From NCBI GenBank assembly GCA_036873755.1, contig JAVTVY010018947.1:1-64000 (forward strand): a stretch of DNA of 64,000 nucleotides. Direction: 5' to 3'. The DNA comes from Hanleya hanleyi. Lineage: Eukaryota > Mollusca > Polyplacophora > Lepidopleurida > Hanleyidae. The position numbers were made by a program, and so were the translations under genes. A model generated the notes under the pieces. It did no database searches. It saw only the letters and a list, made by a program, of their open reading frames with translations, and was not told the origin of the DNA. Below, in pieces: positions 2,206 through 46,006 of the stretch (its first letter is position 1; each line of letters starts with the position of its first letter).

Positions 2206-2297
2206 ATATCAGACTGAACTCGTCATATGCGATAAGCTGCATAGTGTGCTCGTAGCTGAGCTCACGGTAGAATATATCCAGCTTCAACATGTTTTCT
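2206..2297 (-). CDS. DEG/ENaC exon H: palm strand preceding TM2
   Basis: Codes for residues 798-828. Acceptor TTTTTGTGCAG|AGAAAAC completes Arg798; donor ATAT|GTAAGT, phase 1. ENMLKLDIFYRELSYEHT is close to the ASIC strand that immediately precedes TM2 and the DIGG linker. This exon proves that the frame returns to the channel family after the exon G insertion. The next exon should encode TM2; nothing like it is visible in the remaining 2.2 kb. Confidence 0.9.
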
Positions 2298-5200: not shown

Positions 5201-8200
5201 TATCATATAATAATATAATAATAAACTAGCAATTAATAGTGCAAACGTCTAGACTACCTTGGTACAGAAAATTCCTTTCTTAACCTTGTGTATAAAATCT
5301 CCATATAAGCATATCTCCCACATAAAATTGCTATAGATAACTGATACAATTGGAAGGAAATTTGTATATTATCTACACTATACTTATTTGATTTTCTGTG
5401 AGATCTGTAATGTGCATGTCCCTCGGGGTCACAGTGACCTTGACCTTTGACCTTGATCTACATTTTGGTACGCGAAACAGTGTCTCCCTCTACTGACACA
5501 ATTTTTTTATTTTTAATGATTTCATGATTTTGGGGTTACATCGAATTGCGTTATCTTGTATGGTACCACAGTGGTGACGGCGTCTTCACCACCATGATAC
5601 CATTGGTGGTAGCTTACCTGAAGAATAAAGGATCCAGTTCTGTCTCCTTCTCGAATTCAGATAGAGTTCTCATGAGGTCATCCAGCTTTTGGTAAAACAA
5701 TTGCTCGTGTTCTCCAACAGAAATGTCCTGTAGGGCTCTGTTATTGTCGTCGAATTCAGCTATGACATCTTCTTTTTCGGGATGATATTTCAAAAGTTCA
5801 AAATGCCGATTCCTGATTGCATCCAGTCGATCAACTAGTAGCCGTTGTTGTGTCTTGATGACGGAATTGGACACCTTCATATTGCTGATATTGTGATGAG
5901 TGTCCGCGCTATTGAACATCTTTGAAAGTTCAAGTTTCGATACATTTCCATGAAGGAGATAACGATGAGCTTCGTCCAATATATTCGCGAAGTGTAGAAT
6001 CGTAGATGGCGGTTCAAGTTGTTGACCGCTGTGCTCATGGTTTTTCACCATAGCACGGAAAAAATCATCGTATTCCACGATTTCTTCCAGAAATCGTTCA
6101 AGTCGTCTTTCAATGATTTTGAACCAGCCGTGTGTTTTGATAACATATAATTTGGACGTTACCGTTAGTCGTTCAGCCAGACTTTGGAGGGTTTGAGAAT
6201 GGAATGTCCTGTTAAAGTAGGCCTCTTCGACATACTTTAGGTATTCCTCCAGATCCGATATTAATTGATTCGTATAGTTTTCTGGATTCAGATATTCTGG
6301 TGTGGATGATATCAAAAAATTTGGCACTAAAACTTCAGAGTTACTTAGTTCATATGTAAAGTTCAAGTACTCAGAGCTGTTTTGAAATGCGTATGGCGAA
6401 TCTAAGATCACATTCAGCGTTTTCACCATCTTCAGTCTCTCTTGTAAGGCGTTTTTAGCTAACAGAAATGTCGCATCTCTGGTGGTAGTATTGTTGCTTT
6501 GAGCAACGATCGCAACTTTACGGTTCAGTTCAACATAGAATTCTAGAAAATCTCTTGCCCCGCCGCTCGTATTGCATTGTTCCACGTTATGACGAACGCG
6601 AAGAAAATTGTCAAAAAGAAGGAATATTTGATACTGGTATATGGATATCTGCTTGATTGTCGAATCACTTAAATCAACAAGCAAGATTTGAATGGCTATA
6701 CTAAAATAGATTTCCTCTGTCAAAGCCAACTCATCATATAACCGGAGTAATGTGGTCGAAGTTTCGTTTACGAGCTTTGTCATTTCCTCTACCAAGATAT
6801 GGTCATATCTGTGTGTGATTTCCTTTGCGCTTATCAGACTTCTGCCAATAGTATGCGCCCAATCACTCCTTCGGAACTTGTCAATAAGGAAGTTGGACAG
6901 GGAAGTCTGGGAAATTTGAGGATGAAATAGGTAATAGGAGCAGGAGATTTCACAACCACAGAAATGTACCACGGACGGGAAGTTGTCTGCAAACAAAATA
7001 TAGACGACAATTCAGAATGCCACTATGAAATGTATATAATGATTCGAGTCGCTATTTGGACGAACTTCTAAGTGTTGATAACACGCGCATTCCCCGAAAT
7101 TATCAGCATAATGATAAATTCTTGAAATGATAGGTAAGATTATGTATATTTATCAAACTTACACTGGTTATTACTAGTTACACTCCAAAGTTTTTCCATA
7201 TATTAGAAATCTAAAAATGCACGGATTAGAACTTTGTCAGTGGCCACACAGTGGGCATCTTCACAAGTCCAGATAAATCCTAATTCCTCACAGAGGGTTT
7301 ACCTGGGCATTTTTGTTGATTGGGATGAGTTATTATGTTGATTTTTGTTGATTGGGATGAGTTACTATGTGCTTTAGAATAGGTTAACCAGAAGACTGTT
7401 CTGTGAAGTCATGTGACGCAGTCAGTATGTCGGCACCTCTTCCCACTACCTTTATATGTGTTGTAATTTTTTCCTGTATATGGCGAGATTCTGCTGGTGG
7501 ACGTTTCGTCCCCAAGGCCCGCCCCCTGTACAGACCTTTTGGTCTTTGATATATGTTGGCACTGGTGGAAAGTTGATGCTGGGTCGACATCGGGCCTTAC
7601 AGACTAGTGTTTTGTGTTAAATGCCGTTATTTACATCTGACGACGATACAGCTCACCAGTCTCTAATGTACGAGTTGTCACAGCGAAACAGCTCACCAAT
7701 TACCAGTATACGAGTTGTCAGAGCATTTTCATCATAGCTTTAGATTTGTATCTAATACCGCTTATGCCGGTGCTAGGGGCCGTGTGGTCATATCATCCAA
7801 ATTGCCACATGAACAGGTACAATAAAAGCGTGCCTGAGATACAACACATATCACGAATCGTTAGATTCTTGGTATGTGCTTTAGAATAGGTTAACCAGAA
7901 GACTATTCTGTGAAGTCATGTGACGCAGTCAGTATGTCGGCACCTCTTCCCACTACCCTTATATGTGTTGTAATTTTTTTCCTGTATATGGCGAGATTCT
8001 GCTGGTGGACGTTTCGTCCCCGAGGCCCGCCCCCTGTACAGACCTTTTGTTCTTTGATATATGTTGGCACTGGTGGGAAGTTGATGCTGGGTCGACATCG
8101 GGCCTTACAGACTAGTCTTTTGTGCTAAATGCCGTTATTTACATCTGACGAGGATACAGCTCACCAACCTCCAATGTACGAGTTGTCACAGCGAAACAGT

Positions 8201-14200: not shown

Positions 14201-17200
14201 AGTTAACTTAGCTCGTTCACTGTTTGGATTGATTTTGAGAAATGCCTGTGATCGATTTATATCCAGAATTGCTATGAATAAATAAACAAGCCAGCGCATC
14301 GATCCAAACAGATCGTTCGATACAGTGGTTCGCGAGGATGCACAGTGGGCTACGCATCAGCGTGCACAGTCAATACATTGGCAAACTTTACAACACTTGG
14401 TCTCTACACGTTTGCCACTTGATGGATAACGACCCTTGTTCTCCACACATGTTTGTCACTTGGTGTGTATCGACCCGTGTTCTCCACACATGGTTACCAC
14501 TTGGTCTATAACGACCTTTTGAATATTTAGATTAGTTTTCTTGTTCTATTTTCATATGTAAAGGATTCACTACACTGAGTTGTTCCACTCAGGTAGACAG
14601 AATGTCATTTCCAGTTCAATTCCACTGAATCCATAGCTATGTCACATATGCGAGTTTGATATCCTATACATTTTGATGTGAGACAGAGAAGTCAAATGGA
14701 ACACTCCCACGCTGGTAGACAGAATATCATTTCATTAGTCACTCTTGAATATTTAGTCATGTCAGATACATCGGTTTGGTTTCCCTCCCATTGGCGCTGT
14801 TTTAAATAGATAGAAACGTCAGTTTGGACTTCCTCGCCTAATCTATTCTGTGAAGTTTTAAGACGCCAGTTCCACTCATTTTCCCTCCACATTGAACTCT
14901 TCTCTTTAAGTTAGACGCGATGTCTTGCCAATTTTCTCTCCTCTGAAATTTCTCCATTTTTACTTTGAGACAGGCAAGCCATATTGACCAGTCTCCTTTC
15001 GGTAAATAAAAAGCCATTTCTCAAAATGCCCTCTTGAATTGTAGCCATATCAGATACGACAGTTTCGTTTTCTTCCAGTTTTTTCTCTGCAATACCGGTA
15101 TTTGAATATGTCACATAGGACGATTACTTCTCTCTCCTATTTCACTCTGTGAAAGGTAAGCCACACTGGGTGGTTCCCCTATTTCACTCTGTGAAGGGTA
15201 AGCCGCACTGGGTGGTTCCCTATTTCACGCTGTGAAGGGTAAGCCACACCGAGTCGTTCCACTATTTCAATCTGTGAAGGGTAAGCCACACTGAGTCGTT
15301 CCCCTACCTCACTCTGTAAAGGGTAAGCTACAGTGAGTCTTTGCCCAATTTCACTCCGTGAAGGGTAAGCCACACTGAGTCGTTCCTCTATTTCACTCTG
15401 TGAAGGGTAGGCCAGACGGAGTCGTTCCCCTTATTTCACTCTGTGAAGGTTAAGCCACGCTGAGTCGTTCCCCTATTTCACTCTGTGAATGGTAAGCCAC
15501 ACTGAGTCGTTCCCCTTAAGTAGATGGAATGTCATTTCTAATTTTTCTCGACATTTAGTTCACGGCAGATACAACAGTTTGCTATTTCTCTTCCATTTTA
15601 CTTCGAGACAGATCACACTGAGGCTGGTCACATCGGGTAGTCGCCCATTGGGCAGATAAAAAGATATTGCCCAAGATTGCTTCTTGAATTTTATTGATAC
15701 TTCAGTTTGCTTTTCCTTCAATTTTACCTCCACGTTGAGGTGTCCTCCTAGATTTAGACTATGATTCTAGTTTTTCTCTTCTTGAATTTTAAAGCACATG
15801 TCGAATATGTTAGTTTGAAATTTATCATCTATTTTGCTTCTAGACTTCTTGAGTAAATATAATATAATGTCACAAGATACACTCTTGGATTTTAGTCATA
15901 TCAAATACACCAGTTTGATATCTCTCTTCCATTTTGCTTCTAGACAGATACGCTATATTGATTAATCTTTGAGTAAATTAATGTGTCATTTGCCAAGATT
16001 TTCAAGTCAGATATGTCAGTTTGATATTTCTCTTCAGTTGTGCCACGACCTATTTTTCGTCGTTGAATTAAAGATGCATTCCATTCATTTATAGCATTTC
16101 TATGCCAAACAAGTACAAATGAGAAGTGTATAGATTGTTTACGCGTGTTTCACAGGTTAGTTTCTTTGGGTATTCTTGCGTTTACCAGGTTACCCCATGC
16201 TGAGGCGCTTACTCCATTATACATCCATGATGCTCACACTGTAACATGAAATGAGATATTTGAGCTGATCTGTCGTCACAGCTCCCGAGCTAGCGTATCT
16301 AATTCCTCTTAAGCCGGTGCCAGGGACCGTGTGGATACTTCATAGTCTCCTCGTGAACATCTGCAATAACAACGCGGCATAGATAATAAGGTTACGTCCG
16401 AAATTCCACCGTGTGCTCGGGTCTGAATGTTAGGTACCGAGGGGTGCTTCCCTGTAGAGATATATGGTTGCTTTTCAGTCGCCAGGCGTCGTCAGTTTTT
16501 CCCATCTCGTGCATATCTCTCCAACTGAATGACTTAACATGTTTGAGTCACAAAAATGTTGCAAACCAAAAATCAGAGGAAAATCTACCTGGCGTATCTG
16601 ACATGACTGAAATTTCAAAGGATTGCAAAATGAGGGGAAATCAAACTGCTAAAAATTTCAATTTCGCAGAGTAAAATAGGAAAGGAAGACCAAACTTATC
16701 TATCCACCATATCAAAATATTCGAAAGAGTGAAAATTGGGGTGGGGAAATCAAAATGGCGTATCTGACATGATCCAAGAATGGATGATGAGAAATGGAAT
16801 GCCATGTCCCCAAGAGAGACTATTCGATATGGCATCTCTTGTCTTCGACACTTTTACCACATGCTTCATAACGTCAATTGTTCTCCACACATGTTCGATA
16901 AGTGTATCATAATAAACCTTGTGCTCCACACATGTTTAATGAGTTTCCCCTAACTATACTTTCATCCGCCTAAAACGTGAACGATGTCCGTACCGAAGCA
17001 GGTATATTGGCATAGGCTCCAACAATACAAACATATAAACGTACAACTAACTGGCACGGTGTACAGATTTCAACTTAATCGTGTAGAGTAGAACTTCGTC
17101 TACTCCATATTAGTTCCAAGTCTTCGATTCAATGTAGAAGTAGAGTTACAATAAGTATGTGGTGTTAGAAGTATCATTGGATTTCCACCTACCATATGCA

Positions 17201-20200
17201 TCATTGGCACAGCGATAAACTTTCTGCATCGTACAGATCGGGGGGCTACCTAGGAATGTAAAATATATACGTTAGTATACCAGATATGTGAATTATACTC
17301 CTTCAGTCTTATTAAACGTGACACAAGGGTAGATCATATATGTACAAACATTTTCTGACATGTTGTACATTTTACCAAACCAGATCATCAGCTTGAGTGT
17401 CTGCATTGTATCAACAGATCAAAGAAGATCATAAAAAGGGATAATGGCTCTAACTCATCACCTTGGTAATGGCTCTAACTCATCACCTTGGTAATGGCTC
17501 TAACTCATCACCTTGGTAATGGCTCTAACTCATCACCTTGGTAATGGCTCTAACTCATCACCTTTTCGGGACAATAGTTATCACCTTTCTTTCTGGCTGC
17601 GTAGAAATATTGAACCAAATAAATTGCAAGAAATTGGTAATGCACACGAGAAATTTTAAATGGCAACTTCAAAATGGCAACTTTTCCAACGTTATTATTG
17701 TCTGTAAATTGTATGAGACAGGGTACTGGGTAAAAGTATTAGAAAAGACTGGTGTACCTAAATAAAGTTACGACTACTAGACGTATCATGTTGAATTGTT
17801 TTTCTTCTCATTTTAGATATGACCTGGTCTTTTCGAATGTCATAATCTTTAACATTGTACAACTGACAGTGAAGGAAATGGGGCAACCACTGGCACTTTA
17901 CCACTTTGGTCTGTACCAAGCGTTCGTTATCTAGTCAGTTTCAGTAAAGACTACAAAACATGTGGTGGAAATGTTGTGGATTGACTTTTGACCTTTGGCC
18001 TTGGGTTGTTGTTGCAACGTTGATATGGCACTTCGGGTCACGCGGTTGGCGAGTGGATGCAGAAATAGGATTTCCCTAAAAAATAAAATGCGGAAAAACG
18101 AAATTACACCCATCATATGGGTCAAATGGGTTATATGATGTCCCAAGCGGCCGTGGACTTCTGAGAGGTGCATTATTGTATATAATTATTATTATATACC
18201 ACATTATTGGCATGTTCTGACCCGACAATCTGCCTGATAATATATACAGTTCATCCCAAACGACTGTATTAAATACAGTGAAGTAGGCTACTTTTAGGAA
18301 ATATATTTTCATTATTCAGAAGATAATAGCTCTCGTCAATGGTCTAAGTCAGTGATAAACGCATTATCATTTATAGTAATCTTTGATTCGCAATGCAATA
18401 TTATGTTGTCTCATCCAGTATAACCGAAACGTCTTAATTTCGGTAAGAGCTCCTGAATTCGAGTTAAGTCTTTTCAGAGATTATATTTTATATGCCTTTT
18501 CCTTGCAGAGTGGCATTTCTTTAAATAGAGAAGGCGTCTGATCTTCATCTTATATTACGAGTGGAGTAGTCTTATTTTCAGTAAGAAACACTGGACTCGA
18601 TTTGAGAAAATTTCCGGAGACCGTTCAACATACATAACATGTCCTTTTCCTGCAGAAAGGCCGTTGTTTGTATAGAGCGTATGGTCTGCATCATAAATTA
18701 TGGCCGAGCAGCCTTACTTTCAGTAAGCGCTGTTGGACTGAACTGCAAGTATAGCTCCGTGAACTCCGCCTGAAAGTGTGTGTGAGAATGCTACAAAACA
18801 TAATCACATTATTGGCATGTCCGGTCCCTATGGATCCATACTGGCCCACTTCACTGCATGTACAGTCCATTTCTCCGCAATTTTCTCCAGAAAATCCTTG
18901 TTTTACATCCACCCTAGCCAGTCACGTGACTTCTATATTCTCCACGTTGCCCAACACCTTCACCAAATATTATCCTTTACAAAGATGTAACCTTTGACCG
19001 GACGTGACCTCATCACCAGACGTGACGCCATCCGTGACATCACCCTTATCCACCACTCTTCTCCAAACTCCCGCAACAATCGAACCACATTTGCCCTTTC
19101 TATACTACCCATCTGAATATTAACATATTCGTCTATATGGGTCTTTATCCAAACCTCAACATTCCCTGTTATGACATAATAATCAATGGTGCACTTACTT
19201 TCATCGAAAGGCAAATGTGGTAATCGACACTGGCATTGCTTGTGAATATATTCGGCCAGACATTCCTGTTGACATGCTTGTTTGGAGTATCGGTTGCCAT
19301 GGTTACCATATTTCAGTATCTTCTCTCCACATTCTCCATACGGTGGTTTCAGATTTTCCAGCTGCGAAGAGAAAAAGAATTTGATTAAAAACGATTGGAT
19401 TAGAGAAACGGTAGTTCCACTATTATAAAGGCTCCCTCCCACGCCCACATCCTAATGAACTTTCTCAGCTCGGAGTAAATAATATAGGCATGTAATCAAA
19501 AACAATAGATGGCATTTGTCATGCATGATTTTTGTCATCGTTCACAGCTACTCCACCTATATATCACACGATTGTCAATCACTGACTCCTCATTAAATAC
19601 CCATTCTAGAATCCAGGAATTAGAATCTGTCCATGACTCTGTGCATGTCACTTGAGAAATATATGTAGATTTATTGCTTTGGTGGAAAATTAAGCCGTAC
19701 GACGTTAACTACAAGTTAGTTTCTCTGGGTATTCTTGCATTCATCAGGTTATCCCATGTTGAGGCGTCCATGATTCTCATCCGTTGACACCAAATGTGTT
19801 GTATGAGCTGATCTGTCATCAGCTCCCGAGCTAGAATATCTAATTCCGCTTAAGCCGGTGTTATGGGCCTTGTGGATACTTCATATTCTTCACATGAAAA
19901 GCTGCAATAAAAGCGCATTTGAGATACTAAAGCTACGTTCGAGAATCCACCATATTCTCGGGTCTGAATGTTAGGTGCCCAGAGACGCTTTCCTGTGGAA
20001 TAATATGGTTGCTTATTCGTTGCCAGTCGTCGTCATTTTTTCCATCTCTTCCCTAACCGTTCACCATCCTGTGAAGTGGAGGGATATGGGGAGAGAGGGG
20101 TGGGGGTGAGGTAATCAGTCGTGGGCAAGAAAGACAAATGTCGAATCGAAAATGTTCTTGACCCGATCAGTAATTATCCAAGATAATATGAAGCTTAGTT

Positions 20201-23200
20201 GCTCAACAAATCAGAAGACAGATCAGCGTTGGGGATTAAATTCGACCAAATTATACTTTCAAAAGCCAACAAAGTTTTTATAAACGGGAATTGAAATCAA
20301 AATCTCCCGCTGCACGCAAAAACCTGTTTTAATATATAATCAAGGAGAACTCAGTTGTCGATCAATCAAGTGTATCAAGTTTGGGCAGTTACATGTACCG
20401 TCAAAGCTATCTCTTTGCGGATACATGTTTATGAGGAAGCACATGTTAAGCAATGGCTTGTAAACATTTCCAAAATGGAAGTTGCCAAAATTGCATTAAT
20501 GTAAACGTTTTTACCTTGTCTTTAATGGACAACGTATATAAAAAATATTTATGCAAATTCTGCCAGTTTTGTCAGATCAACACAATTTCTCCACATTTCA
20601 GCATAGACAAAGTCGTTGCGGGAACTTCTGCAAGGCGCATGAGTGACTACCATATACATAACTGAATCTTCAGATTGTATAGGGGGGAGCAAATACAACA
20701 CTGACATAAACACTTACGTGTGAGACAGTAACTCCCATAAGGGTGTGTGAGCCTGTTGATACACCGTAGCCTAAGTTTCGTACCAGGGGCGGACTGTACA
20801 TGTCATGTAGAAAGACTTTGATTCCGGCGCCATCGTGCGGTCCTGGCATGTATTCATACTGCTCCACGTTCAACGTCAGTCTAAGTCCACGAAGCGTCCC
20901 TGTCGTGGAAAAACAAAGGAGCAAAGTTTTGCGATATTTGGTGATCACTTGAAATAAAGCGAAAGATGACTTTTAGGACACCCGGTGGTGAAGCCCAGTT
21001 TTACTGCGCAAGAAATCTACATTCTGGGTCAATTACGTTCTGAATCTCTTAAGATCCAGGCACAGAAAATTCAAATTTTTTAATTCAATTCAAAATTTTC
21101 CATTCAAACCATAGTCCTAGTCTGTGTTTCCTAAATACTTCCTAAATGGCCACTCTTGGAACTTACCTTAATGAACTGTACAGCCACAGAGTTTCACTTG
21201 GGTCAAAGTGCTCCGTAATAACCACCACAGTAGTGGTAAAAGTGGACTTGTGTTCTCATTGACCTTTCAGTTTTGTAATAGTTCAGTTGTTTTGGTTATT
21301 TGAATACAAACAGAAATTAAATGTTTGACAATTTCACAAAGAAATCACACTTGGAACTTACTCTATTGAACTGTGCAGCTAGAAAATTATTTCACATGGA
21401 TCAAACTGCTCCGTAATAACCACCACTATAATCCTCAAATGAAAAGGTAGACGATCCTACAAAATATTTGTGACTCACACAACCTCCACCATCTCAAATC
21501 ACCAAGTACAGAATGATATAAAACTCGCCAACAATGCGGGGTTATTCTGAGTCATTAATATTCATAAACTTTTTTACCCAGTTCAGTGAATAATCCTGAA
21601 GAGATCAGGTTGCGCATGCACAACTCAACTTCAGAGATTTTACCTGAAATGCAGGGATAATTTCCTGATATTCAGGTATATCAACCATGAATTAATGCTA
21701 AATTATCTGAACTTTAGGGGATTCTACGTACCTGAATAAGATCGGGAAATTACTATCCAGGGTGATAAATCTGCCAGAATTTCAGTGAAAATCCTCACAT
21801 TCAGGGATCTTTTTCCTGAAATTCAGGTAATTAGCCCTGAATTTAAGCCAAAATCCCTGAAATCGAGTTGTGGATACACAACCTGATCAGTTCAGGACTC
21901 TTACCTGAATATTTCTAAGAGTGTAGTCCCTCGGTTACAAATGGAGGCAAACTTTGAAAATGTTATTTCAGACTCCAGACTGTTGGCTAGTACGGGTTGA
22001 ATTTAGTTGTTTGGGTCACAGATATTTATAGATCTTCTATCTTTTCATTTGGGAATTTCTATGGCGGTAAATGTGCAGTTTGATCCGAACGGATTCTGTG
22101 GCTAAACATTTATATAAACATTTATATGTAACAGAGCAGTATTTGAGAATTACACTTTGTGTCCTCAAAATCAGACCTGTCTGTCGTGCAATTTCCGTGT
22201 TTCTACTTTTCTCCTTACTCAGTCTGTTTTTCAATCGTCAACACGTTTCAACGGTCGTTGTTGCAATGCACCTTAACAGGCCCATTTGAATCCAGGCAAG
22301 CGCTGGTGAAATATTTACTTGGAATTACATCATCGTTTCCTCCTTCCTGCACAGGTGCAGATATATTGTAAAAAATAATCCACTACTTCTGCCGCTAACG
22401 GTAGGTATCAGAGGCGTCTCGACTATCGGTTCTGCCTAATTCACCCGACATTTTTAAACTGTAAAAAAGCGACCCCACAAACGAACAGAAATGACGTTTA
22501 AGGAAGTTGCGTCTACTGTTGATCTCAATGTCAAATGTAATCGCGCTCTATCCATTCGCGCCACGAAGAAGATCTGTTGGTTTGCGGGATAGCTTTTTCA
22601 GTTTAAAAATGACAGGCGAGAAAGACAGAACCGATAGATGAGTCGCCTCTGATACCTACGGTTAGTGTGAGAAGTTATGGAAATCCCTACAATCTATCGA
22701 CAGCTATGCAAAGACATGAAACTGAACAGCTGAGTGGAAAAAGTTGGGTTTAGAGCTTTCGTTGTCATATTTTCAGAATCTGTCTGATAGTGCGCATCCG
22801 TCCCAATCGTTATATATGGGTATAGTATATGGTAGCTTACGGAAACAACAACGTCGACTAATCAGCATTGTTTTATTGATAGCAATATCGACTAACCCGC
22901 ATTGTTTTAATGATTTGAGACACGGCGAACAAACGTAGCGAAAATTTCTAATGACGCTATAATCTTACTTAGCCAGAGTCAGATGCACACGTATTGAGCT
23001 CAGGCAAATGTGAAATGTGTACCATACCTGTATTAGATAGGTACAGACGATCGTCCGTTAAATTATTCCCTGGTCCATTAAAAGTGAAGCAGACGCCATA
23101 GTCGGTGAATTGAGTGGTGAAGTTCTCGGGCCCACACTTCTCTCCTGCCCAGTTACAGCTGGTGTTATACAAAGACAAGAATAGAGACAAATGGGAAGGA

Positions 23201-32200: not shown

Positions 32201-35200
32201 CTTCGTATTCTAATCCGAATGTGAGATGCTGAGGGGGTCGAAGGTCTTTACTGTTGTGTCGTGTCGGTTGTTTTTAGTCGCCAGTCATGGTCAATTCCCC
32301 GCCAACCCTCTCCCCCCTTCTTACTTATCTCTCCAACTTATTAATATGTGTAAGGATTCTGCTGGTGGACTTCTAGTCCCCGAAATCCATCCTCTGTACA
32401 TGTCATTTGACAAATATATGTAGGATTATTGTCTTCACTAGAAATTTAAGCTGTAAGACGTTGAGACCTTTTGGTTAGTTTTTCTGGGTATTCTTGCATT
32501 TACCAGGTTTGTCCGATGTTGAGGAGTTTACTCTCTTAAACGCCCTAGATGATCATCAATTAATACCAGATGAGTTAAATATAGGAGCTGACTTGTCATC
32601 ACAACTCCCGCGCTAGCGTGTATAATTTCGCTTAAGCCGAGGTCACTTCAACATTTTCTCCAGGACAGCCGCAATAAAAGCGCAGCTGAGATACTACGGC
32701 TACTTCCTCAATCCTTGGTATTCTAGTCTGAATGTGAGATGCTGAGGGAGGCTTCCTTGTGGAGTCATATGTTCGTTTTCAGTCATCAGACGACTTCAAC
32801 TTTTCCCACCCCTTGCATGTCTTTCCAATGCATTATCTGTATATGACAGGATTCTGATGGTGGAATATTATTCCCCGAGGCCCGACCAACATGTCGTTTG
32901 ACAAATATATGTAAGTTTATTGTTTTGGTGTGAAATTTAAGCCATATGACGTCGGGCAATATAGGTTAGCTCTACTGGGTAATTTTGCGTTTACCAACCT
33001 AGCCCTATGTTGCGGTGTTTACTTCATCAGACGCCATTGATGTTCAAACAGTAACGTCAGATGAGTTGATTGAGCTGATCTGTCATCAAAATTTCCACAT
33101 GAGCAGCTGCAATAAACACGTGGCTGAGATAATAAGGGTACGTCATAGAATCCTCTGTATTCTAATCTGAATGTGAATGCCGAAGGAAGGTTTCCTGTGG
33201 CCTTATATGGTTCTTTTGTACTCGTCAGACGTTGTTAACTTTTTTTCGCCTCTTGCATATCTCTCCAATCTATTTATTTGTATAGGGTACGAGGATAGTT
33301 GGTGGGGCTGGCGGTCGCCGGATTGTTAGTCGCCGAGGTCCGCCCTCTGTGCACTTTTCTGTTACTGTTTTCTGCTAATTAAATCGCTTCTGCCAATTAC
33401 CGCGTTATTCAAACAAAGCACAAATGATTGATGTATTTTACAGCTGCAACCATATCAGGAAGACAGAACACATTTGTCGTGAAAGCATCACCTACATTTA
33501 TGTCATAAACGTTACATAAACTTACGGCATGACTCAAACATTATGCTATCGGGCAAAATTAGTTATCGTCCACCTTTCTCATTCACCGCCACCCAATAAA
33601 TCTTCGCCCTTTCCACTTTAATCAATGGACAATGCTACATTGTCCCTATGGCTGCGATGGGTAGACAGACACGTGGATGACCGCATGAGCTCTAGTTTCT
33701 TCTCAAAATCTGTCCCCTATCTTTTTAACCTGTGGCGTGTGCTGTTTTTTTAACTGTTGATAACTGATGAAAATATGATAAAAAGAATAAAATATTTCTA
33801 CTTCCCAAGAAAGGGCTAATAAGCTTACATTTATGATAATTTTGGCAACATCAGGTCGAAATTGGTCCAGTTGTCATCGATTAGAATTTTGGTTGAACAG
33901 ATAACAAAGCGCCCTAAATAACGAACCAGAACTCATGCGGCCTGACAGGTCTAGGTGCACCTCCCGCTGTCATCGAGGCAAGACGGCATTGTCCAGGGAT
34001 TAACTTGAACTATAGTGGAATTGCCCCATATCAGAGATGACCTATCATTACTACCTACTTTACTATCATGTCTTCTTTCCCGTGTGCGCCATTCAGTAAC
34101 AACTCATCATAAGTCATATTCAGGGCACCATACTTCTCCACGGCCTCCATGATCGTACCGAGATCGTTCTGACCATACAAAGTCTCAATTAGTCGGTATT
34201 TACCCATTTTGTCTACTTCAGTCGCTCTGTAAATGAACAACGAAATAGTAAAGAAATAGCCTCAGAACAGTACTTCTCCCCCGGCCCCTGTATCAGCACA
34301 TAACATGCTATGAATGGTCCACTATAGCAACAATTAAGATAGATGAATTGTACTCATCTTTGTAAGTAGGCCTAACGCTAAGTGAAATTTCCCTCGAAAT
34401 GTTTAAAAGAGTAAGCGAGTGTAAGTCTCTCACAGACATTGTATATGGTCATTTCTCATCAAAAGTTATGACACAGACATATGATACTATTTACCGCAAA
34501 TTTATTTAATTGCTTGTATATTAAGGATAGTGTTGGTTACTGTAGATTGAATCCTGAATTCTGAAACTAATTAATGGGTACTGAGCCCTCCTGCATTTAC
34601 TTTCACACACTCCCTCGAACTATGCCACACAGCTATGGTATATATTTCTTGAAGGCACATTTCTTGAGAATTCCAAAGATATAAAATCGTTCACTGTAAA
34701 CCTCTAAGTTGTGAAGATATTTGGATCTAAAAAAAAATAATTTAAAATTTAATTTTAATTTTTTAAATGCTATTTTCAAAAGAGTGTTCAACTTATCGTA
34801 ACTTTCTTCATCATTCCCGGTAGAAGACAACTCCAGCAGGAAATCTGTGTCTCAGTTTGATCAATTTTTGTCTAGTTCTCATTCTATTGACATTTAATGA
34901 AATATTTCTTTACGAAATGGAGCAACTCACAGTTTTGAAATTTGACGTTGAATTAAATATCAACAGAATAAGAACTAGACCAAAATTGACAAAATTGAGA
35001 AACTTATTTCCTGTTGGAGTTGTCTTCTACAGGGAATGATGATGTAAGTTACGACAAAATTTTGTTTTCCTCCGTGGTCCGTTGTCCGTCCTCAGTTAGT
35101 TAGTCGTCCGTCAGTCGTCCGTCCGTAAACAATTCTTGTTATCGCGATTTCTCAGGAACTACTGCAAGGACCTTTCTTAAATTTGGTACACAAGCTTATC

Positions 35201-38200: not shown

Positions 38201-41176
38201 GTATCCTTCAGTACTCCTTAAGCAGTGAAAGAACAAATGTAAGTGTTGTCTCTCAGTGAGGTCTGAAGTCCTTAACCTTTCGTTCATCCGCGGCACACTC
38301 ACTTGAATGAGTTCTGGTTACATATGGTTACAGTCGGAAAGATCAGGGAGTCGCTATACTTGATCCGAACGCTGGTTGCGATTGGCCAGATGAGGAAGTA
38401 GTTCAGCCTATCGTAACACTGCCAAGTGACAGCTGCGGTACCGCCCAACACAGCCAGTATCCATAGCAACCTGAAATGAGCAATTTGTGGAGTACCGTAA
38501 CTTGTTGAGATGATTCCACACCCATCCACCCCCTGCCCCTGAATAGCTTAGTTGCTATCCCTGATATTGGACACTGTCTAGAATTCTTTACCGAAAATAA
38601 TATTTGTTCACACTTCCTGCTTTCTCGCTACAACAAGTCCCGTATCTTACAAAATGCAAAACAGTCAGGTTTGATAGAATAGGAGCAGAGGTTCTTGTCC
38701 AAACCGGACCGGCTTGTATGTTGTAAGATAGGGAATTTGTTCAAGTTGTAGCAGGAAGTTTCACCAAACATTTTCTCTGGTATAGGGTATCTAGATTGTA
38801 TAAGATGCTGGCTTGACGGCTACGGTGTTGCATCTAGCAAATACAGTGCACATATCACAAGCTCTACTTCCAGCATCTTTGATTTTAGTTAACACTTAAT
38901 GTACCTATGCAATTTTCGTAAATACATCACGCGTAATTAATGGTGGATTTTTCCTTTGGGTTTCATTCTCACTCAAATATAAGACACTTCAAACCGGAAA
39001 GAAAACAATTCTAGTTCATCGAAATAATAATAACAATATAGTCATAATATATCTGCGCGCATAAAGAGCTTCTATCACTTACGTCCTTACTCTCCTTATT
39101 CCCCCAGCTGATTCACACCGCATATATGGCGCCTCTTGACCGTTAGGAGGCGCTTTATCATGGATATTCAATCATCGTGCCGTAATAGCTAGGAGCTAAA
39201 CAGATTCTTCATGCTAACCACGATTGGCTAACCACTGCACGTGATCGAAATTACATCACATCCACTGAGAGAACAGATAGTGGATGCCCGGATGTTGGTC
39301 GCTGTCATAAACATAGGGACCGAGACTCATCCGTAAAAGTGATTTTTCTTGGCCATCGACGGCTGGACTGTGCAGTGCGCCCGCTGAAGGTTAAGAGGCG
39401 CGAAATATGTGGTGTGAATCAGCGGGGGAGCAAGGAGAGTAGGGACGTGAGTGAAACAAGCTGTTTATGAGCGTATAAAATATTATGTGTATATATCCTC
39501 CGTTTAAATGCCACATATTTCTGCAATAACTTTTTCGTGAACGATGAATTCATTATAATTCTTCTAACATTCCAATTATTTAATCCTCGTTATCGACGAA
39601 AATATTGCGAGTATACCATCAAGCGCACCCACTTAGTGTTTCTTAAATGTGACACTACATATGGCTCACTGATAGCAAAATACTGGCGTAGCATGCAATT
39701 TCTATGCCAATACGTTTAATAACTTTTGTCCATTTCCGCATCACCGCGGGCAGGCGCCATATGAAACATATCTACATGAAGATCCTCCTGGTTTTCTTAT
39801 GAACATTCAATGTCAAAGCGTGACTGAGATACATTCTCTAGATAATGAACTTTACAATGTAATCCACAAGGATTAAGAATACTGATCAGCGATACGGTTT
39901 TCGTATTTATACACGTGATGTATTCAGTCTTGCTGACCGCTTATTTCTTGCAGGAAAGTCGCATATATTTATGTGCAGTATGATTGTTTCCTTTTATTTA
40001 GCGTCAATGCTGTTATGATCTGCGTGAGCCAGTGTATCGAGCGATATGTTAGGATAAATACACTGGCTTGGTTAATTACCCATACTAGTTCGGGATATAA
40101 ATAAAGCAAGGGGTTTTCTATAAATCAACCCAATCAGTGAACGCGATAAGCTAAGATTATTAGGCCAATCCGTCGCAAGGTATGATATGTGACAGGGTTA
40201 AATTTCATCGCGGGTCAATCTGCTTTGATATCAACCCGAGATCGACGTCGGAAGTGAAAGCTGAAACCGCAGGCTTGGGATATCGACATGCTAATTCAAA
40301 ACAAGCGCGGGGGATGAAATGTTCGAGATTGTATTATAGTAGCATTGACTCAGGAGCTCATTCGAATGACCAAAAATGATCAGGTAAACCCTCTGCGAGG
40401 ATTTAGGATTTATCAGGGGATAAAATATATATCCAAATGAAATGGATATTCCTTGATTCTACCCCCGAAGGATCTTTCCTACTTTGAGATGTTTCTCCTG
40501 ATTTTTCATCTTCAGCTGATCTCCATTGGGTAACATCAATGATAGTCACGTGGGTTAATGTTTGCGCGCCACAGCAATATTCGAACGTTGAAAAGGAATC
40601 GAGGGAGGAACAGAACAGGTGCGACAGAAAAGACTCCAGAAAAGAGTACCTGTTTAGATGACCGTTGTTGTAAGCATACAACACTCCTTCCCGAGTATTT
40701 AAGGTATGTGATGTCACTTGGTTGACCGATTCGTCAGCCGAGGAAGAATGTGTGCTATATATTTCTGGTCGAACTCGTCCTTCTAAATGATTTGGGGCTT
40801 GGTATCTCCTCTTTTATTCGGGAGAGAGCTACTAAGTCTATCAAATTATCTGTGATGCCACTACTTTGTCGAGAGAGAAAAAACATGACCACGCCCTGAA
40901 AAATAATATTGAAATTAAAAAAGAATCTCTGTATAAAAAAACGTTCTGTACTTCCTTAACTCACCTTCTAACCAGCGAACCTCCACTAAAGATGTACCGT
41001 ATGCCATGGAAGGTCGTATCTTGAGTGAACTGAATGAAGTCCTTATGTATCTGTTGTTTAGTAATCGGCTCACTCTCGGGATTGGTTGATGTACACGCTG
41101 CATTCCCGCTTGGTAGAGAACCAGATCTGTAGTTTTTCATCACCACTGACTCTTCCCTTGTCTCCACTGTGTCCAT
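2206..41176 (-). CDS. DEG/ENaC (ASIC-like) cation channel gene, eight exons, 3' end outside window
   Basis: Spliced coding region on the minus strand: 40965-41176, 38303-38470, 34059-34226, 23028-23158, 20718-20899, 19199-19361, 5618-6986, 2206-2297. All junctions are GT-AG and the phases join without a break (2, 2, 2, 1, 0, 1, 2), giving 828 codons plus one base. The product should be a plasma-membrane trimeric sodium/cation channel subunit. Visible family marks: the N-terminal gating His-Gly (57-58), TM1 (about 72-93), FPTVTICNQN (115-124), a GPENFT...TDYG block (193-204), a LTLN...YEYM segment (234-244), PPYGEC (293-298), the cysteine-rich core (C317, C321, C330, C332, C351, C353, C357) and the palm strand LKLDIFYREL (802-811). 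Oddity: about 410 extra residues at about 380-790. TM2 with the selectivity filter was not found in 1-2205 and is probably further left. It could equally be classed FaNaC-like; ligand unknown. Confidence 0.9.
3002..3862. repeat. 861 bp direct duplication, copy 2
   Basis: Second copy of 1-861, separated by about 2.14 kb that includes exon H. At least one pair of matched ends is outside the window, so it is open whether this is a tandem segmental duplication, a pair of recent copies of one element, or an assembly artefact. No TG...CA ends or polypurine tract mark it as LTRs. Confidence 0.95.
3046..3126 (-). repeat. tRNA-derived SINE head (also at 45-125)
   Basis: On the minus strand an A-box-like tggccgagtggg is followed about 40 bp later by a B-box-like gtcgcgagttcgcccc. 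The spacing suits a Ser/Leu-type tRNA-derived promoter. It does not fold as a complete tRNA, so a SINE head is preferred over a tRNA gene. Confidence 0.5.
3863..4763. other. AT-rich intron sequence, nothing recognised
   Basis: No open frame, repeat structure or splice-bounded exon that I can support. The same holds for 2298-3001. Confidence 0.5.
4764..5224 (-). pseudogene. Non-LTR retrotransposon (LINE) reverse transcriptase C-terminal remnant
   Basis: An open minus-strand frame of about 150 codons bounded by a stop at each end. It contains LNPLIKLQKRAIRAITFS and, near the end, ITGPQEWNNLPPLL followed by SLFQTKITTYLL. These are the thumb and terminal motifs of CR1/L2/jockey-like reverse transcriptases (a QKRA-R-I block, then GP-WN-LP, then F...K..L). 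The catalytic domain and endonuclease are missing, so this is a 5'-truncated dead copy in the intron between exons G and H. Clade assignment is tentative. Confidence 0.75.
5225..5617. other. Intron sequence with tgaccttgacctttgacctt motif
   Basis: Around 5441-5460 lies a run of three TGACCT-type half sites, resembling a nuclear-receptor DR1 element. It is also a common word in mollusc interspersed repeats, so regulatory use is unproven. Nothing else seen. Confidence 0.35.
5618..6986 (-). CDS. DEG/ENaC exon G: end of cysteine core plus about 410-residue extracellular insertion
   Basis: A single 1,369 nt exon, residues 342-798. Acceptor TTTTGTTTGCAG|ACAAC, donor CTTCAG|GTAAGC. The first 40 residues are canonical (FCGCEISC with C351, C353, C357, then SLSNFLIDKF). 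In ASIC-type channels about ten residues then lead to the ENILVLDIFF-type strand. Here about 410 residues intervene, ending in LDPLFFR. The insert is rich in Leu, Glu, Asn and Tyr, looks mainly helical, has one cysteine (479) and ten N-X-S/T sequons (415, 480, 506, 507, 544, 550, 578, 600, 689, 707). No stop codon or composition shift suggests a retained intron. I recognise no domain in it. By structure of relatives it would sit at the knuckle/upper palm. Confidence 0.88.
6987..7375. other. Intron start; dispersed repeat shared with 62640-62725
   Basis: The segment around 7257-7340 (tcacaagtccagat ... gagggtttacctgg ... gattgggatgag) matches 62640-62725 in the same orientation. Otherwise nothing recognised. 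Confidence 0.45.
7376..11119. repeat. 507 bp satellite array, left block
   Basis: The landmark gtcatgtgacgcagtc recurs at about 7408, 7915, 8425, 8934, 9311, 9817, 10322 and 10828, i.e. every 505-510 bp. The exception is one unit of 377 bp, which lacks about 130 bp after ttgtaatt. Units are highly similar, with scattered substitutions. Short open frames occur on both strands of each unit, but their conservation is explained by the repeat itself. The array lies in the 12.2 kb intron between channel exons F and G. Confidence 0.95.
11120..12722 (+). mobile_element. Helitron-like non-autonomous element with central tandem core
   Basis: Inserted into a 507 bp satellite unit: removing 1,603 bp restores both the sequence caccaattaccag and the 507 bp spacing (10828 to 12938). 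No target-site duplication is visible (one A is ambiguous). The centre has about six copies of a 150-180 bp core (tccaagtttggtgaaat at about 11670, 11908, 12055, 12240, 12398, 12570) separated by acggacgg-type runs. The right end is a 14 bp-stem hairpin (12689-12720, atgtctccccc / gggggagacat). A tandem core, a terminal hairpin and no duplication are traits of Helitron/Helentron-derived elements such as the Pearl-type repeats of bivalves. It carries no coding capacity. Confidence 0.75.
12723..14010. repeat. 507 bp satellite array, right block
   Basis: Continues the array exactly where the left block was interrupted (ttaccagtatacgag...). Landmarks are at about 12938, 13444 and 13951. The array stops after ttgtaatt, the same position at which the short unit near 8993 is deleted. 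Confidence 0.95.
14030..14310 (+). repeat. Dispersed repeat (inverse copy at 40025-40335)
   Basis: atttcatcccctgcgcttgt and tatcccaagcttgcggcttt here match the reverse complement of 40025-40335, with divergence through the middle. Likely an old interspersed element; no coding potential seen. Confidence 0.6.
14380..16100. repeat. Diverged tandem-repeat region
   Basis: Three units of about 55 bp at 14390-14515 (ttctccacacatgtttg...cttggt) are followed by many degenerate units of roughly 100-160 bp. The recurring words are ttagtcatatcagatac, gtttgatatctctcttcc and attttgcttctagacaga. Related words occur inverted at 16560-16790, and ttctccacacatg recurs near 16880, giving a loose inverted arrangement around the region. 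Confidence 0.6.
15137..15517. repeat. 42 bp minisatellite, about nine copies
   Basis: Unit ctatttcactctgtgaaggg followed by taagccacactgagtcgttcc. 381 bp contain about nine copies with point changes. Because 42 is a multiple of three, the minus strand stays open and reads as a repeated 14-residue unit, which is not evidence of a protein. Confidence 0.92.
16140..16500. repeat. Diverged relative of the satellite unit
   Basis: Contains gctgatctgtcgtcacagctc, taagccggtgccagggaccg tgtgg and gcaataacaacgcgg, matching the order of words in the 507 bp unit and in 19690-20060 and 31790-33380. Probably an old family of which the 507 bp array is a recent amplification. Confidence 0.65.
17443..17564. 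repeat. 25 bp minisatellite, about five copies
   Basis: Unit aatggctctaactcatcacc ttggt, starting at 17443, 17468, 17493, 17518 and 17543. The copies are identical until the last one breaks off, indicating recent expansion. Confidence 0.95.
18415..18760. repeat. About 140 bp tandem units, roughly 2.5 copies
   Basis: The pair ccttttcctgcagaaagg ... cttactttcagtaagc recurs about every 140-145 bp with divergence. Flanking 17565-18414 and 18761-19198 show nothing further I can name. Confidence 0.55.
19199..19361 (-). CDS. DEG/ENaC exon F: PPYGEC and first half of cysteine-rich core
   Basis: Codes for residues 288-342. Acceptor CTTCGCAG|CTGG (phase 0); donor GAAA|GTAAGT (phase 1). PPYGEC (293-298) and the spaced cysteines of YSKQACQQECLAEYIHKQC (C317, C321, C330) and C332 form the disulfide-rich thumb. 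The open frame runs on past the donor to 18960, but that part has no similarity to the family and is read as intron. Confidence 0.92.
19690..20060. repeat. Diverged satellite-family unit
   Basis: Same word order as 16140-16500 (acaagttagtttctctgggt, ctgatctgtcatcagctccc, cttaagccggtgttatgggc, gcaataaaagcgc). Lies in the intron between exons E and F. The remainder, 20061-20717, has a G-rich run near 20080-20110 and otherwise nothing recognised. Confidence 0.65.
20718..20899 (-). CDS. DEG/ENaC exon E: palm/beta-ball segment
   Basis: Codes for residues 227-287. Acceptor CCACGACAG|GGACG; donor CAC|GTAAGT, phase 0. It encodes GLRLTLNVEQYEYMPGPHDG followed by GIKVFLHD, then GVSTGSHT. This matches the family's beta-strand pair in which the protein turns from the palm into the thumb. 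Confidence 0.9.
21594..21897. mobile_element. Foldback (MITE-like) element, about 304 bp
   Basis: Imperfect inverted arms of about 80 bp: the left arm begins tcctgaagagatcaggttg and the right arm ends caacctgatcagttcagga. Similar short inverted words (cctgaattcagg types) fill the centre. No coding capacity. Exact ends and target duplication are unclear because the similarity fades outwards. Confidence 0.6.
22398..22662. mobile_element. MITE-like element with TA target duplication
   Basis: Terminal inverted repeats of about 63 bp: acggtaggtatcagaggcg at the left and cgcctctgatacctacggt at the right, continuing inward through ctatcggttctg and atttttaaactg. Both sides are flanked by TA (22396-22397, 22663-22664), as expected for Tc1/mariner-type insertion. 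265 bp, no open frame. Confidence 0.75.
23028..23158 (-). CDS. DEG/ENaC exon D: conserved GPENFT / TDYG block
   Basis: Codes for residues 183-227. Acceptor GTATAACACCAG|CTGTAAC; donor ACAG|GTATGG, phase 1. Contains cysteines 184, 191 and 206 and CGPENFTTQFTDYGVCFTFN, which is very typical of molluscan FaNaC/ASIC-like channels. Sequons NFT (195) and NLT (215) sit on the extracellular side. Confidence 0.9.
23480..23600. repeat. Degenerate gaagtat / gcagtat repeat
   Basis: Short irregular repeats of gaagtat and cagtat words (tagaagtacatacagtaac, aatggcagtatgatagaagt). The same motif clusters at 27225-27450, 27960-28000 and 29850-30150. Confidence 0.5.
23601..27110. other. Gene-free intron sequence
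   Basis: AT-rich; no recognisable exon, element or array. A G-rich plus-strand tract at 26819-26870 (gggtgggggcggggagg ... ggggtgggaaggggg) could form a G-quadruplex; this is a composition observation only. Confidence 0.45.
27113..27164. repeat. 18 bp tandem repeat, three copies
   Basis: Unit ctattgcctcgacggact at 27113, 27131 and 27149; the third is slightly truncated. Confidence 0.9.
28001..29860. other. Intron stretch with possible inverted-repeat element
   Basis: cccttaccaaagac near 28047 and gtcttcggtaagg near 29838 are inverted with one mismatch. Both ends are rich in cgaatac/ccacaat words, and a 19 bp perfect inverted pair (29586-29604, 29645-29663; aatacaaagattgtggttt) lies near the right end. 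It may be a non-autonomous DNA transposon of about 1.8 kb. No transposase frame is visible. Confidence 0.3.
29861..30930. other. gaagtat-type repeats, then nothing recognised
   Basis: 29861-30150 is full of agaagtatagcagcagtat-like words. 30151-30930 includes long chance open frames on both strands (for example 30196-30579), but neither resembles a known family or shows a splice-bounded exon of the channel. Confidence 0.4.
30935..31025 (-). repeat. tRNA-like SINE head
   Basis: On the minus strand tggccgatagg (A-box-like, 31007-31017) is followed by ggttcgaatccc (B box, about 30940-30951). The interval is too long and unpaired for a functional tRNA, so a tRNA-derived SINE is preferred. Confidence 0.45.
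31790..33380. repeat. Diverged satellite-family array, three to four units
   Basis: The word ggttagtttttctgggtattcttgc recurs at about 31819, 31944 (partial), 32471 and 32960. Each is followed by the gagctgatctgtcatc, cttaagccg, gcaataaaagcg and gattctg.tggtggac words of the 507 bp unit. Much more diverged than the 7.4-14 kb array. Lies in the intron between exons C and D. Confidence 0.75.
34059..34226 (-). CDS. DEG/ENaC exon C: finger domain
   Basis: Codes for residues 127-183 (168 nt, phase 2 on both sides). Acceptor TTCATTTACAG|AGCG. I chose the donor AA|GTAGGT at 34058 rather than GTAAAG at 34063, because only the former keeps the frame open into exon D and yields the family-like join MIVNCNW. 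The region carries one sequon (NMT at 163). The donor is the weakest splice call in this gene. Confidence 0.75.
34793..35057. mobile_element. Foldback (MITE-like) element, about 265 bp
   Basis: Inverted arms of about 110 bp with 80-90% match: ttatcgtaac ... cattcccggtagaagacaac on the left, gttgtcttctacagggaatg ... gttacgacaa on the right, meeting near 34925. It abuts the 3' end of the Helitron-like copy starting at 35058 and may have removed that copy's terminal hairpin. Confidence 0.7.
36472..36674 (+). pseudogene. Fragment resembling P2X7-like transposon-associated proteins
   Basis: 67 codons from ATG to a donor TACTG|GTATGT. An acidic stretch with DVLPYQFEP, then EVEQRDNESEADEA and RLVNTYW. 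The YxFEP plus RL-NT-W pattern resembles the N-terminus of P2X7 ballast-like proteins that are multicopy in many aquatic animals. A possible acceptor at about 36937 gives only a short tail with MPSSQ. Cysteine-rich C-terminal parts are missing. Family assignment is tentative. Confidence 0.35.
36927..37264 (-). pseudogene. THAP zinc-finger domain fragment, frameshifted
   Basis: Starts MPYCTAYGCTN (C4, C9) at 37264. After an A-rich run the frame shifts by one base and continues VNFFSFP ... WVHYCSR ... FEPSKYSTLCSGHF. The C-x4-C ... C-x2-H zinc ligands, the Trp and the FP of THAP (a C2CH DNA-binding domain found in P-element-type transposases) are all recognisable. No RNase-H-like catalytic part follows, so it is a non-functional remnant. 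Confidence 0.7.
38303..38470 (-). CDS. DEG/ENaC exon B: TM1 and start of extracellular domain
   Basis: Codes for residues 71-127 (168 nt). Acceptor CTCATTTCAG|GTTGC; the split AG|G codon gives Arg71. Residues 72-93 (LLWILAVLGG...) form the first membrane span. It is followed by the first palm strand and FPTVTICNQN, a near-invariant DEG/ENaC signature. Donor CAA|GTGAGT, phase 2. Confidence 0.92.
39076..39453. mobile_element. MITE-like element, 378 bp
   Basis: Terminal inverted repeats of about 65 bp: cacttacgtccttactctcc, then agctgattcacaccgcatat and gcgcctcttgacc on the left. The right side ends ggagagtagggacgtgagtg. No coding capacity. Target duplication unclear. Sits in the intron between exons A and B. 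Confidence 0.75.
40025..40335 (-). repeat. Dispersed repeat (inverse copy of 14030-14310)
   Basis: aagcgcgggggatgaaat and gcaggcttgggatat match the reverse complement of 14030-14310. The rest of the intron (38471-39075, 39454-40024, 40336-40964) shows nothing else. Confidence 0.6.
40965..41176 (-). CDS. DEG/ENaC exon A: cytosolic N-terminus and start codon
   Basis: Codes for residues 1-71. The start is the ATG at 41176, with A at -3 and G at +4. An in-frame TGA lies further upstream and there is no other ATG between. The last part reads FTQDTTFHGIRYIFSGG, the family's pre-TM1 stretch with the His-Gly pair needed for gating. The first 40 residues are Ser/Thr/Glu-rich and not conserved. The donor is AGAAG|GTGAGT and leaves phase 2. 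No core promoter was identified upstream. Confidence 0.85.
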
Positions 41177-42660: not shown

Positions 42661-44117
42661 CATTATACAGATTATGCACGCTGTGGGATGTGACATCAGG
42701 ATTTGTCAGATCGAGACAGGTGCTCTCCGCACTCGTTAAATATCACCTATATTATACCGACGGCTATCCGTCACAGCTTTCTCGTTACCAAGATATCTTT
42801 GGAACGATTTACCCTAGGCACACCAAACTTGCAGTGCACATCCACATGCTCGTGACCCAGAACCCCATTGAATCTGGAACCCATTTATGCGAAATCATTA
42901 AGCTTGTTTATCTCGGATACCATTTCGCGGTTCAGTGCGAAACTTGATGTAGACCTCGATACATCAAGAAACTTTAAAATAATGACCGAACCAGTTTCCC
43001 GGATTGGGTGGAAACCTTGGTGGCCATCTTTAATTGATGCATAATCTTGACTGATATATATCTTTGGGAGTAGCGTACTGAAATATCTTGGGAATCTGCT
43101 GTAAAAAGGCCTACATTTGGGTCTCGCTCAGAGGAGGTCCTAGACACAGAGCCTATTCATATTTCATATATCAAAATAATTTTATGTATCTCAGCAATAT
43201 TTTCAGGCCAAATCATCTTAGTGTTGAAAACAAAATATACGGACTGGCCTGTGTTCATCATCAACAACGACGCTGACATCTAGGCTCATTTCCACAAAAT
43301 ACATCAACTTCCGCTGACGGCTCATGTATCCACTACGCAACTGAGATGTTTATATTCACTACAACTCTGTCAAGTAACTCCAGTAGCTGTCAAAAAGTAT
43401 TATACTCTCATCGCCAGTTCGATTTGAATGTAATATGTCATCTGTCAGAGTTACAAAAATGGAGCCCAAATGATAGCCTCGTTCCGAAGTGCATGATGTC
43501 ATCACTACATTTCAAAAAAAAATTCTGAATTCATCCATTCTGATTTTCTATCAACCTTTTAGGCTGAATTTATATCAATATAATCTAACAAAATGGCATT
43601 TTCAATTTTAAAATCGAGTTTTGAGGGGAATTCCAGTCTGTGACCTCTACAACATTGGGGTTCTCCCTCGATTTTTGTACGAAACAGTGCATGCCATCCT
43701 TATAGAACAAAAAAAAAAATTGATTTTTTTTTAAAAAGTGGGAAATTCTGAACAGTTAGGTGTATTTGTCATCAAAATCAGTTAAAATCTCACCGAAATA
43801 TTAAGTATTCCCTACAGACACTATATCATGGATTTTCACCAATCAGCAGTACTCATTTAGTAATAGCATTATCTTAACATGTAATCATGTATACATGTAA
43901 TTCAAATACATTTTGTTGAGAAAATGAACCAGCATCTAATCATAGAGAATAATCCACGAACAAAAGTAAAATAGCAGCCTGAATTATGTGTACATGTAAC
44001 CGACATAAGTTTATAATGTATTGTGATGTCACAACACAAGCCATTTCCTTATGACGTTACATAAGTCCACATCAACACCTACAACAAGTATTACAGTGTC
44101 CAGTACGACCACCCCCA

Positions 44118-44785: not shown

Positions 44786-44933
44786 ACACACTCACAGTGG
44801 CTTCCCTCAGCTGGAGTTTGTGTTTTATGCTGGAGACAATAAAACATATATAGAACACACCCTTCGTGTTTATGTTGTCTCTGTAGACCCATAATAAAAA
44901 GGGTAGGGCTGAGGGGTTCGGCGTTAGTTGCAC

Positions 44934-45973: not shown

Positions 45974-46006
45974 AACCGGGAACGGTGACAGGAAAGCTCA
46001 TTCGCC

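Follow-up and report, generated by a model that had tools for sequence, protein, structure and literature searches.

The gating of DEG/ENaC channels is understood from members with compact ectodomains. Several described systems are close enough to the gene considered here to frame its analysis. The FMRFamide pocket of FaNaC1 includes finger helices and, from the adjacent subunit, the knuckle helix alpha6 (PMC11026163); in alpha-ENaC, N-glycan sites on the knuckle and palm matter for the response to shear (PMC7958617); and in the ASICs, H73 and K211 are needed for proton gating (PMC10507113). In a 2023 eLife survey, neither of the molluscs Acanthopleura and Crassostrea was reported to have ASICs, from which a loss was inferred (PMC9949801). 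Here we describe a gene of the polyplacophoran mollusc Hanleya hanleyi (assembly GCA_036873755.1) that lies in the first 64,000 nucleotides of contig JAVTVY010018947.1, the stretch analyzed in full and hereinafter called the window. By its domain and modelled fold, its product is a DEG/ENaC channel, and alignment places in it, between two palm strands, an insert of about 422 residues that replaces a short knuckle segment. The evidence detailed below supports the view that this insert is a genuine, selected, extracellular-side helical module of an ASIC-like DEG/ENaC channel and not a retained intron.

Gene structure and the insert of exon G

The gene runs from 41176 to 2206 on the minus strand, with nine exons (A-F, F2, G, and H) distributed over 39 kb; when joined, these yield a stop-free protein of 847 residues in a continuous frame, with AG preceding each exon after A and GT following all nine. 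The exons, with transmembrane segments given as TM1 and TM2 and with two same-genome paralogues (C18950 and C8537) named for comparison, are as follows.

40965..41176, minus strand: exon A, start codon (ATG) and N-terminus with the HG motif (TTFHGIRYIF); donor gtgagt, in frame with exon B
38303..38470, minus strand: exon B, TM1 and start of the ectodomain (FPTVTICNQN); GT-AG; Pfam ASC match at 38299-38481
34059..34226, minus strand: exon C, finger region by ASIC1 alignment; GT-AG, frame continuous
23028..23158, minus strand: exon D, CGPENFTTQFTDYGVCFTFN; GT-AG; ASIC1 alignment
20718..20899, minus strand: exon E, palm (LNVEQYEYMPGPHDGAGIKVFLHD); GT-AG; ASIC1 alignment
19199..19361, minus strand: exon F, first part of the cysteine core; GT-AG
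17193..17249, minus strand: exon F2, cysteine core (PPICTMQKVYRCAND); GT-AG; 96.5% identical in C18950 and C8537
5618..6986, minus strand: exon G, end of the cysteine core and the complete insert; GT-AG, 1,369 nt open; protein identity 83% to C8537 and 82% to C18950
5626..6894, minus strand: insert within exon G, residues 392-814, mostly helical by model, ten sequons, one cysteine
2206..2297, minus strand: exon H, palm strands after the insert (ENMLKLDIFYRELSYE); GT-AG; ASIC1 alignment

The Pfam ASC domain matches residues 50-399 (E = 2.5e-75; 254.7 bits against a gathering cut-off of 23.6), and the best solved relatives by sequence are the ASIC1 structures (E = 3.9e-49), whose alignment reaches residue 392 and restarts weakly at 813-844, i.e., on both flanks of the insert. 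Further, exons A and B carry the DEG/ENaC signatures TTFHGIRYIF and FPTVTICN, which we take to be the HG motif before TM1 and the FPxVTxCN motif after TM1, respectively. An exon encoding TM2, with its G/A/S-type selectivity filter, was not found within the 64-kb window, whose base 1 is also the first base of the contig. Both C18950 and C8537 have a TM2-like exon that carries GAS, and GAS is likewise found in the homologues.

Exon G (6986-5618) has the acceptor ttttgtttgcag and the donor gtaagctacc, has an entry phase of 1 and an exit phase of 2, and is in frame with F2 and H. An earlier reading of the window from its letters alone, hereinafter the original prediction, had described a single open exon of 1,369 nt in phase with both neighbors, with ten sequons and one cysteine in the insert and with exon H resuming the palm strand, and in all of this it was right. 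Other particulars need revision: the insertion is real, but its bounds are 392-814 (421-423 residues, depending on the end setting) instead of the roughly 410 residues proposed for 380-790; of the cysteine core, exon G encodes just the final portion (CGCEISC), with what precedes it encoded by earlier exons; and the ASIC counterpart, given as about ten residues atop the palm/knuckle, aligns as a short segment of the knuckle, presumably alpha6 in terms of ASIC topology. The insert has no Pfam match, and a comparison of its halves gave no signal of internal duplication. Exon G contains 53 GT dinucleotides; of the best 12, a single one has the phase for exon H, located in mid-insert at residue 610 with a score of 2.74, and none is a usable in-phase donor close to where the insert begins. 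The real donors of the gene score from 3.01 to 8.24.

The insert family and its relation to known channels

In three protein searches, whose candidates were database sequences sharing short words with the query and whose counts of listed matches are hence lower bounds, the insert was common to at least 47 proteins (P0001-P0047), with four others (P0048-P0051) lacking it. The carriers come from bivalves, gastropods (Haliotis, Patella, Lottia, Babylonia, Batillaria, Littorina, Aplysia, Elysia, and Candidula), the chiton Liolophura, the cephalopod Argonauta, and the nemerteans Lineus and Tubulanus, along with five entries labelled lgn. With a homologous insert at the corresponding position, between the palm strands, the window gene is a member of this mollusc-nemertean family; the idea that the insert is confined to this genome or peculiar to gastropods is ruled out by this span and by the grouping of the genome with the chiton. 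The insert measures 470-479 residues in 39 of the 47 proteins, 508 in Tubulanus, and 302-445 in seven, which may be partial or mis-modelled. An insert-only profile built without the window gave the window insert 103 bits (best of 200 shuffles, 7.2), and in a scan of the 823 six-frame window open reading frames (ORFs) of at least 40 residues, it gave the exon G ORF 102 bits and the runner-up 2.5. Across 13 proteins, identity to the window is 16-22% in the insert and 38-44% in the core. Across 40 full-insert rows, conservation reaches at least 80% at 52 positions of the insert, and one sequon column is present in 37 of the rows, although it is absent from the window insert. The lgn proteins P0022, P0025, and P0028 resemble single genomic exons, and their family similarity stops where exon G stops (F-L-R or F-L-K). 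Further, P0021 and P0030 have full-length frames with the insert on contigs of 3,474 and 3,656 bases; these contigs are probably spliced RNA, given that the nine exons of the window gene extend over 39 kb.

The window sequence scores higher with ASIC1 (171 bits) and ASIC5 (164) than with FaNaC (88). ASIC1a and ASIC2 have the short knuckle alpha6 where the insert family has about 470 residues. They also differ in an acidic pair, D78/E79, which is not kept as a pair in the family (an acid is found at the first place in three of eight rows), and in the acidic loop WGETDETSFE, which the family is missing. The residues aligned to H73 and K211 are absent from all eight family rows shown, the window included, and, by sequence, classical ASIC proton gating is therefore unlikely. 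ASIC5/BASIC and the Trichoplax protein P0048 (named Acid-sensing ion channel 6) differ from the family in having no insert, with core identities to the window of 32% and 29%, respectively; P0048 is among only four insert-free rows of the 34 listed in the profile search. FaNaC, an FMRFamide-gated channel of molluscs and annelids, is a spiralian DEG/ENaC channel like the insert family, but it is more distant in sequence than ASIC1, and its alpha6 pocket residues form a short stretch, unlike the insert (PMC11026163).

Two core trees were computed, the first from 49 of 56 rows (six with too little core and P0051 were left out) and the second from 28 of the 56 aligned rows. They placed the window outside the mollusc and nemertean rows (support, 96/92 and 93/94), but the approximately unbiased test does not reject the window with the molluscs (p = 0.325). 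In the larger core tree, the long-branch tunicate row P0049 fell within the family, which we take as a long-branch error. With the few references in the core tree, the best topology joins the family with ASIC5 and P0048 at a support of only 43/91, and a union of the family with ASIC1/2 was not rejected (p = 0.498).

Profile searches of the 2.48-Gb assembly, which scored the best candidates only and thus give lower bounds, recovered at least 87 DEG/ENaC matches and insert exons at 13 or more places: nine complete and open, two fragments at contig starts, and two interrupted. These are distributed as follows.

Group A, complete insert exons: window, C8537, C18950
Group B, complete insert exons: C5995 (two), C36205
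Group C, complete insert exons: C18152, C25145, C7653
Fragments at contig starts: C36984, C10187
Interrupted group B copies: C8145 (L027; the frame stops, and a second piece has TAA), C17650 (L019 and L029; two pieces)

The interrupted copies are either pseudogenes or assembly faults. The insert is 422-423 residues long in group A and 468-473 in the measured copies of groups B and C (471 in C7653). AG|GT occurs at the same exon-end place in six copies of groups A and C, and the group B boundary was placed by protein reading; C18950 holds all nine exons, stop-free and with intact splice sites. In a tree of 20 of the 47 database inserts and eight of the nine complete genome exons, Liolophura and the chiton-like P0022 form a group with C18152 and C25145 (100/97), and C7653, entered at 412 residues, joins them (98/99), a placement that, with one named chiton in the tree, makes a chiton source most likely; group A, which includes the window, and group B form a divergent branch of their own (100/99). 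A 25-row insert tree without the paralogues did not resolve the position of the window. As to the remaining DEG/ENaC matches, L001 (C4042) and L002 (C35729) each match the profile over its full length (3-455) within one open frame, of 606 and 598 residues, respectively, and are apparently intronless. Many of the matches cover profile positions of about 21-232 in single open frames, which suggests that DEG/ENaC genes of another type have expanded here.

Selection, predicted fold and competing explanations

The ratio of nonsynonymous to synonymous substitution (dN/dS) was obtained by Nei-Gojobori counting with bootstrap intervals, not by a likelihood test, for a set of same-genome paralogues outside which the C10187 fragment falls. 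Inserts of group C give 0.18 (0.13-0.24; C18152 versus C25145), and those of group B give 0.24 and 0.25 for two pairs (dS, 0.11-0.12) and 0.15 (0-0.54) for a near-identical pair. In group A, comparison of the window insert with the inserts of C8537 and C18950, its close paralogues, gives 0.68 and 0.75, and both intervals span 1. For the window versus C18950, the core value is 0.30 (0.18-0.53) and the insert value 0.75 (0.50-1.15), at dS values of 0.130 and 0.132; nonsynonymous changes number 93 per 1,001 sites in the insert versus 35 per 914 in the core (p = 1.4e-6), and synonymous changes are not enriched (p = 1.0). At most one gap codon separates the three group A inserts. The C8537-C18950 inserts reach 2.05 (1.18-5.85), a borderline excess (Fisher p = 0.036 or 0.074, depending on rounding), and their flanking introns diverge by about 20% on the 5' side and 3% on the 3' side, an unevenness that may point to conversion or recombination in this pair. 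Judged from these counts, the insert is constrained in groups B and C and evolves fast in group A, through either relaxation or diversifying selection.

The AlphaFold model of the Solemya insert consists of long helices, with a block-mean predicted local distance difference test score (pLDDT) of about 92. By fold, the insert bundle matches the TorS sensor domain, alpha-catenin, vinculin, talin, and bacterial chemoreceptor ligand domains; no sequence relation to the TorS, alpha-catenin, vinculin, or chemoreceptor bundles was found, and the Z scores fall in the range common in this tool for helical bundles.

On the combined evidence, we consider it probable that the place of alpha6 is taken in this subfamily by an ectodomain that is folded, all-alpha, and rich in sequons and through which an external partner is coupled to the gating corner. 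Such a domain, of about 470 residues in the family and about 422 in the paralogue group of the window, would be seated on the knuckle at its contact with the finger of the neighboring subunit, the same corner as that of the FMRFamide pocket in FaNaC. The putatively glycosylated ectodomain might bind an extracellular ligand, a matrix component, or a partner, and the binding or pull would be passed to the finger-knuckle corner, upon which the pore would open or close. This coupling is suggested because the insert replaces the FaNaC alpha6 and because a knuckle glycan matters in the ENaC shear response. The faster change of the insert than of the core in group A would be expected from copies with different partners or from a relaxation of constraint. 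It is also conceivable, if distinctly improbable, that these channels constitute an undescribed class of ionotropic receptor with a tall, glycosylated helical ectodomain on the gating corner and with several chiton paralogue groups, in one of which the ectodomain would diversify faster than the pore because it recognizes a changing partner, as the value of 2.05 for C8537-C18950 might suggest.

The original prediction had preferred a selected, secreted-side domain over a retained intron and had envisaged it as helical. The helices of the structure models agree with this, as do the sharing of the insert and of its exon boundary, the apparently RNA-derived contigs, and the purifying selection (dN/dS of about 0.2) in two groups of same-genome paralogues. 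Its expectation that relatives could be sought among gastropods led well beyond them, to other molluscs and nemerteans; what it called novel residues, however, belong to proteins already in public databases under names such as ‘uncharacterized’ and ‘acid-sensing ion channel 4-B-like’. The insert is undescribed in the literature searched, the coverage of which excludes most subscription-journal papers. Stops or frameshifts in relatives, which it held would speak against it, are a mixed matter, with nine same-genome copies open, two of the 13 places interrupted, and two fragments. A retained intron or annotation artefact might be suspected of a segment that lies within one exon and lacks a Pfam match, but it is ruled out, with hardly any residual credence, by the insert-profile match, the dN/dS values of a conserved insert under purifying selection whose relatives have long open frames, and the donor scan near the insert start.

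The other explanations concern function. The insert could be a structural or trafficking spacer (a glycan shield, assembly aid, or protection) with no role in gating; its ten sequons and its faster divergence than the core at a steady length would suit such a scaffold, but the 52 conserved positions, the strong purifying selection in two groups, and an insertion point at the gating corner, as reported for FaNaC, make this unlikely. Alternatively, glycans and helical bundle might bind the matrix and pull the knuckle, the channel being mechanically gated by a force tether; the long predicted helices, the bundle matches to vinculin, alpha-catenin, and talin, and the importance of knuckle and palm glycan sites in alpha-ENaC (PMC7958617) are in line with this, and we regard it as rather unlikely. 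The window gene might also be a decaying paralogue, in which relaxed constraint explains the fast insert and 422 instead of about 470 residues reflects loss. The dN/dS intervals that include 1, the roughly 50 missing residues, and the two interrupted group B copies could be so understood; against this stand the core value of 0.30, the intact splice sites in both the window and C18950, the near absence of gap codons in group A, and the value of 2.05 for the nearest pair, which, at its borderline significance, is the opposite of simple decay. We hold decay, too, to be improbable. Returning to the coupled ectodomain that we favor, several observations weigh against it: the window gene itself is modelled with lower confidence (mean pLDDT, 72.6); the models are of monomers, from 28-29 sequences and with predicted template modeling scores of 0.53 and 0.49, so that any pose of the insert on a trimer is conjectural; the fold matches are generic helical bundles; the window keeps the family residue at only 18 of the 52 conserved positions; the interrupted copies C8145 and C17650 make decay in part of the family possible; and the residue-610 GT, near the weakest real donor in score, would permit a splice form without the second half of the insert.

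The surrounding locus and significance

The window also contains repetitive and element-derived sequence. A 153-residue ORF (4767-5225, minus strand) within the intron between exons G and H looks, by our reading, like the C-terminal end of a non-long-terminal-repeat reverse transcriptase. Degenerate repeated copies with short spurious ORFs in several frames occupy about 7300-13900, in the intron between F2 and G, and a direct repeat of about 860 bases, its two copies nearly identical on visual inspection, lies at 1-860 and 3001-3860. A satellite array with a 157-base unit (54293-56382; 13.4 copies) has a seemingly related, shorter counterpart, likewise with a 157-base unit, at 35196-35779 (3.7 copies). 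On the plus strand, ORFs at 44027-46644, with a P-loop (AGPAGSG) and a long following frame, look like the genes of an endogenous element of the Polinton or adintovirus kind.

As a natural family with a large folded domain on the knuckle, the insert channels offer a direct test of how the corner controls the pore and of whether DEG/ENaC channels can use large external ligands or tethers. Further, an ASIC-like mollusc family without the proton-sensing residues bears on what replaced the ASICs that the survey reported as lost (PMC9949801), and the insert channels could conceivably, though improbably, be the molluscan counterparts of those ASICs.
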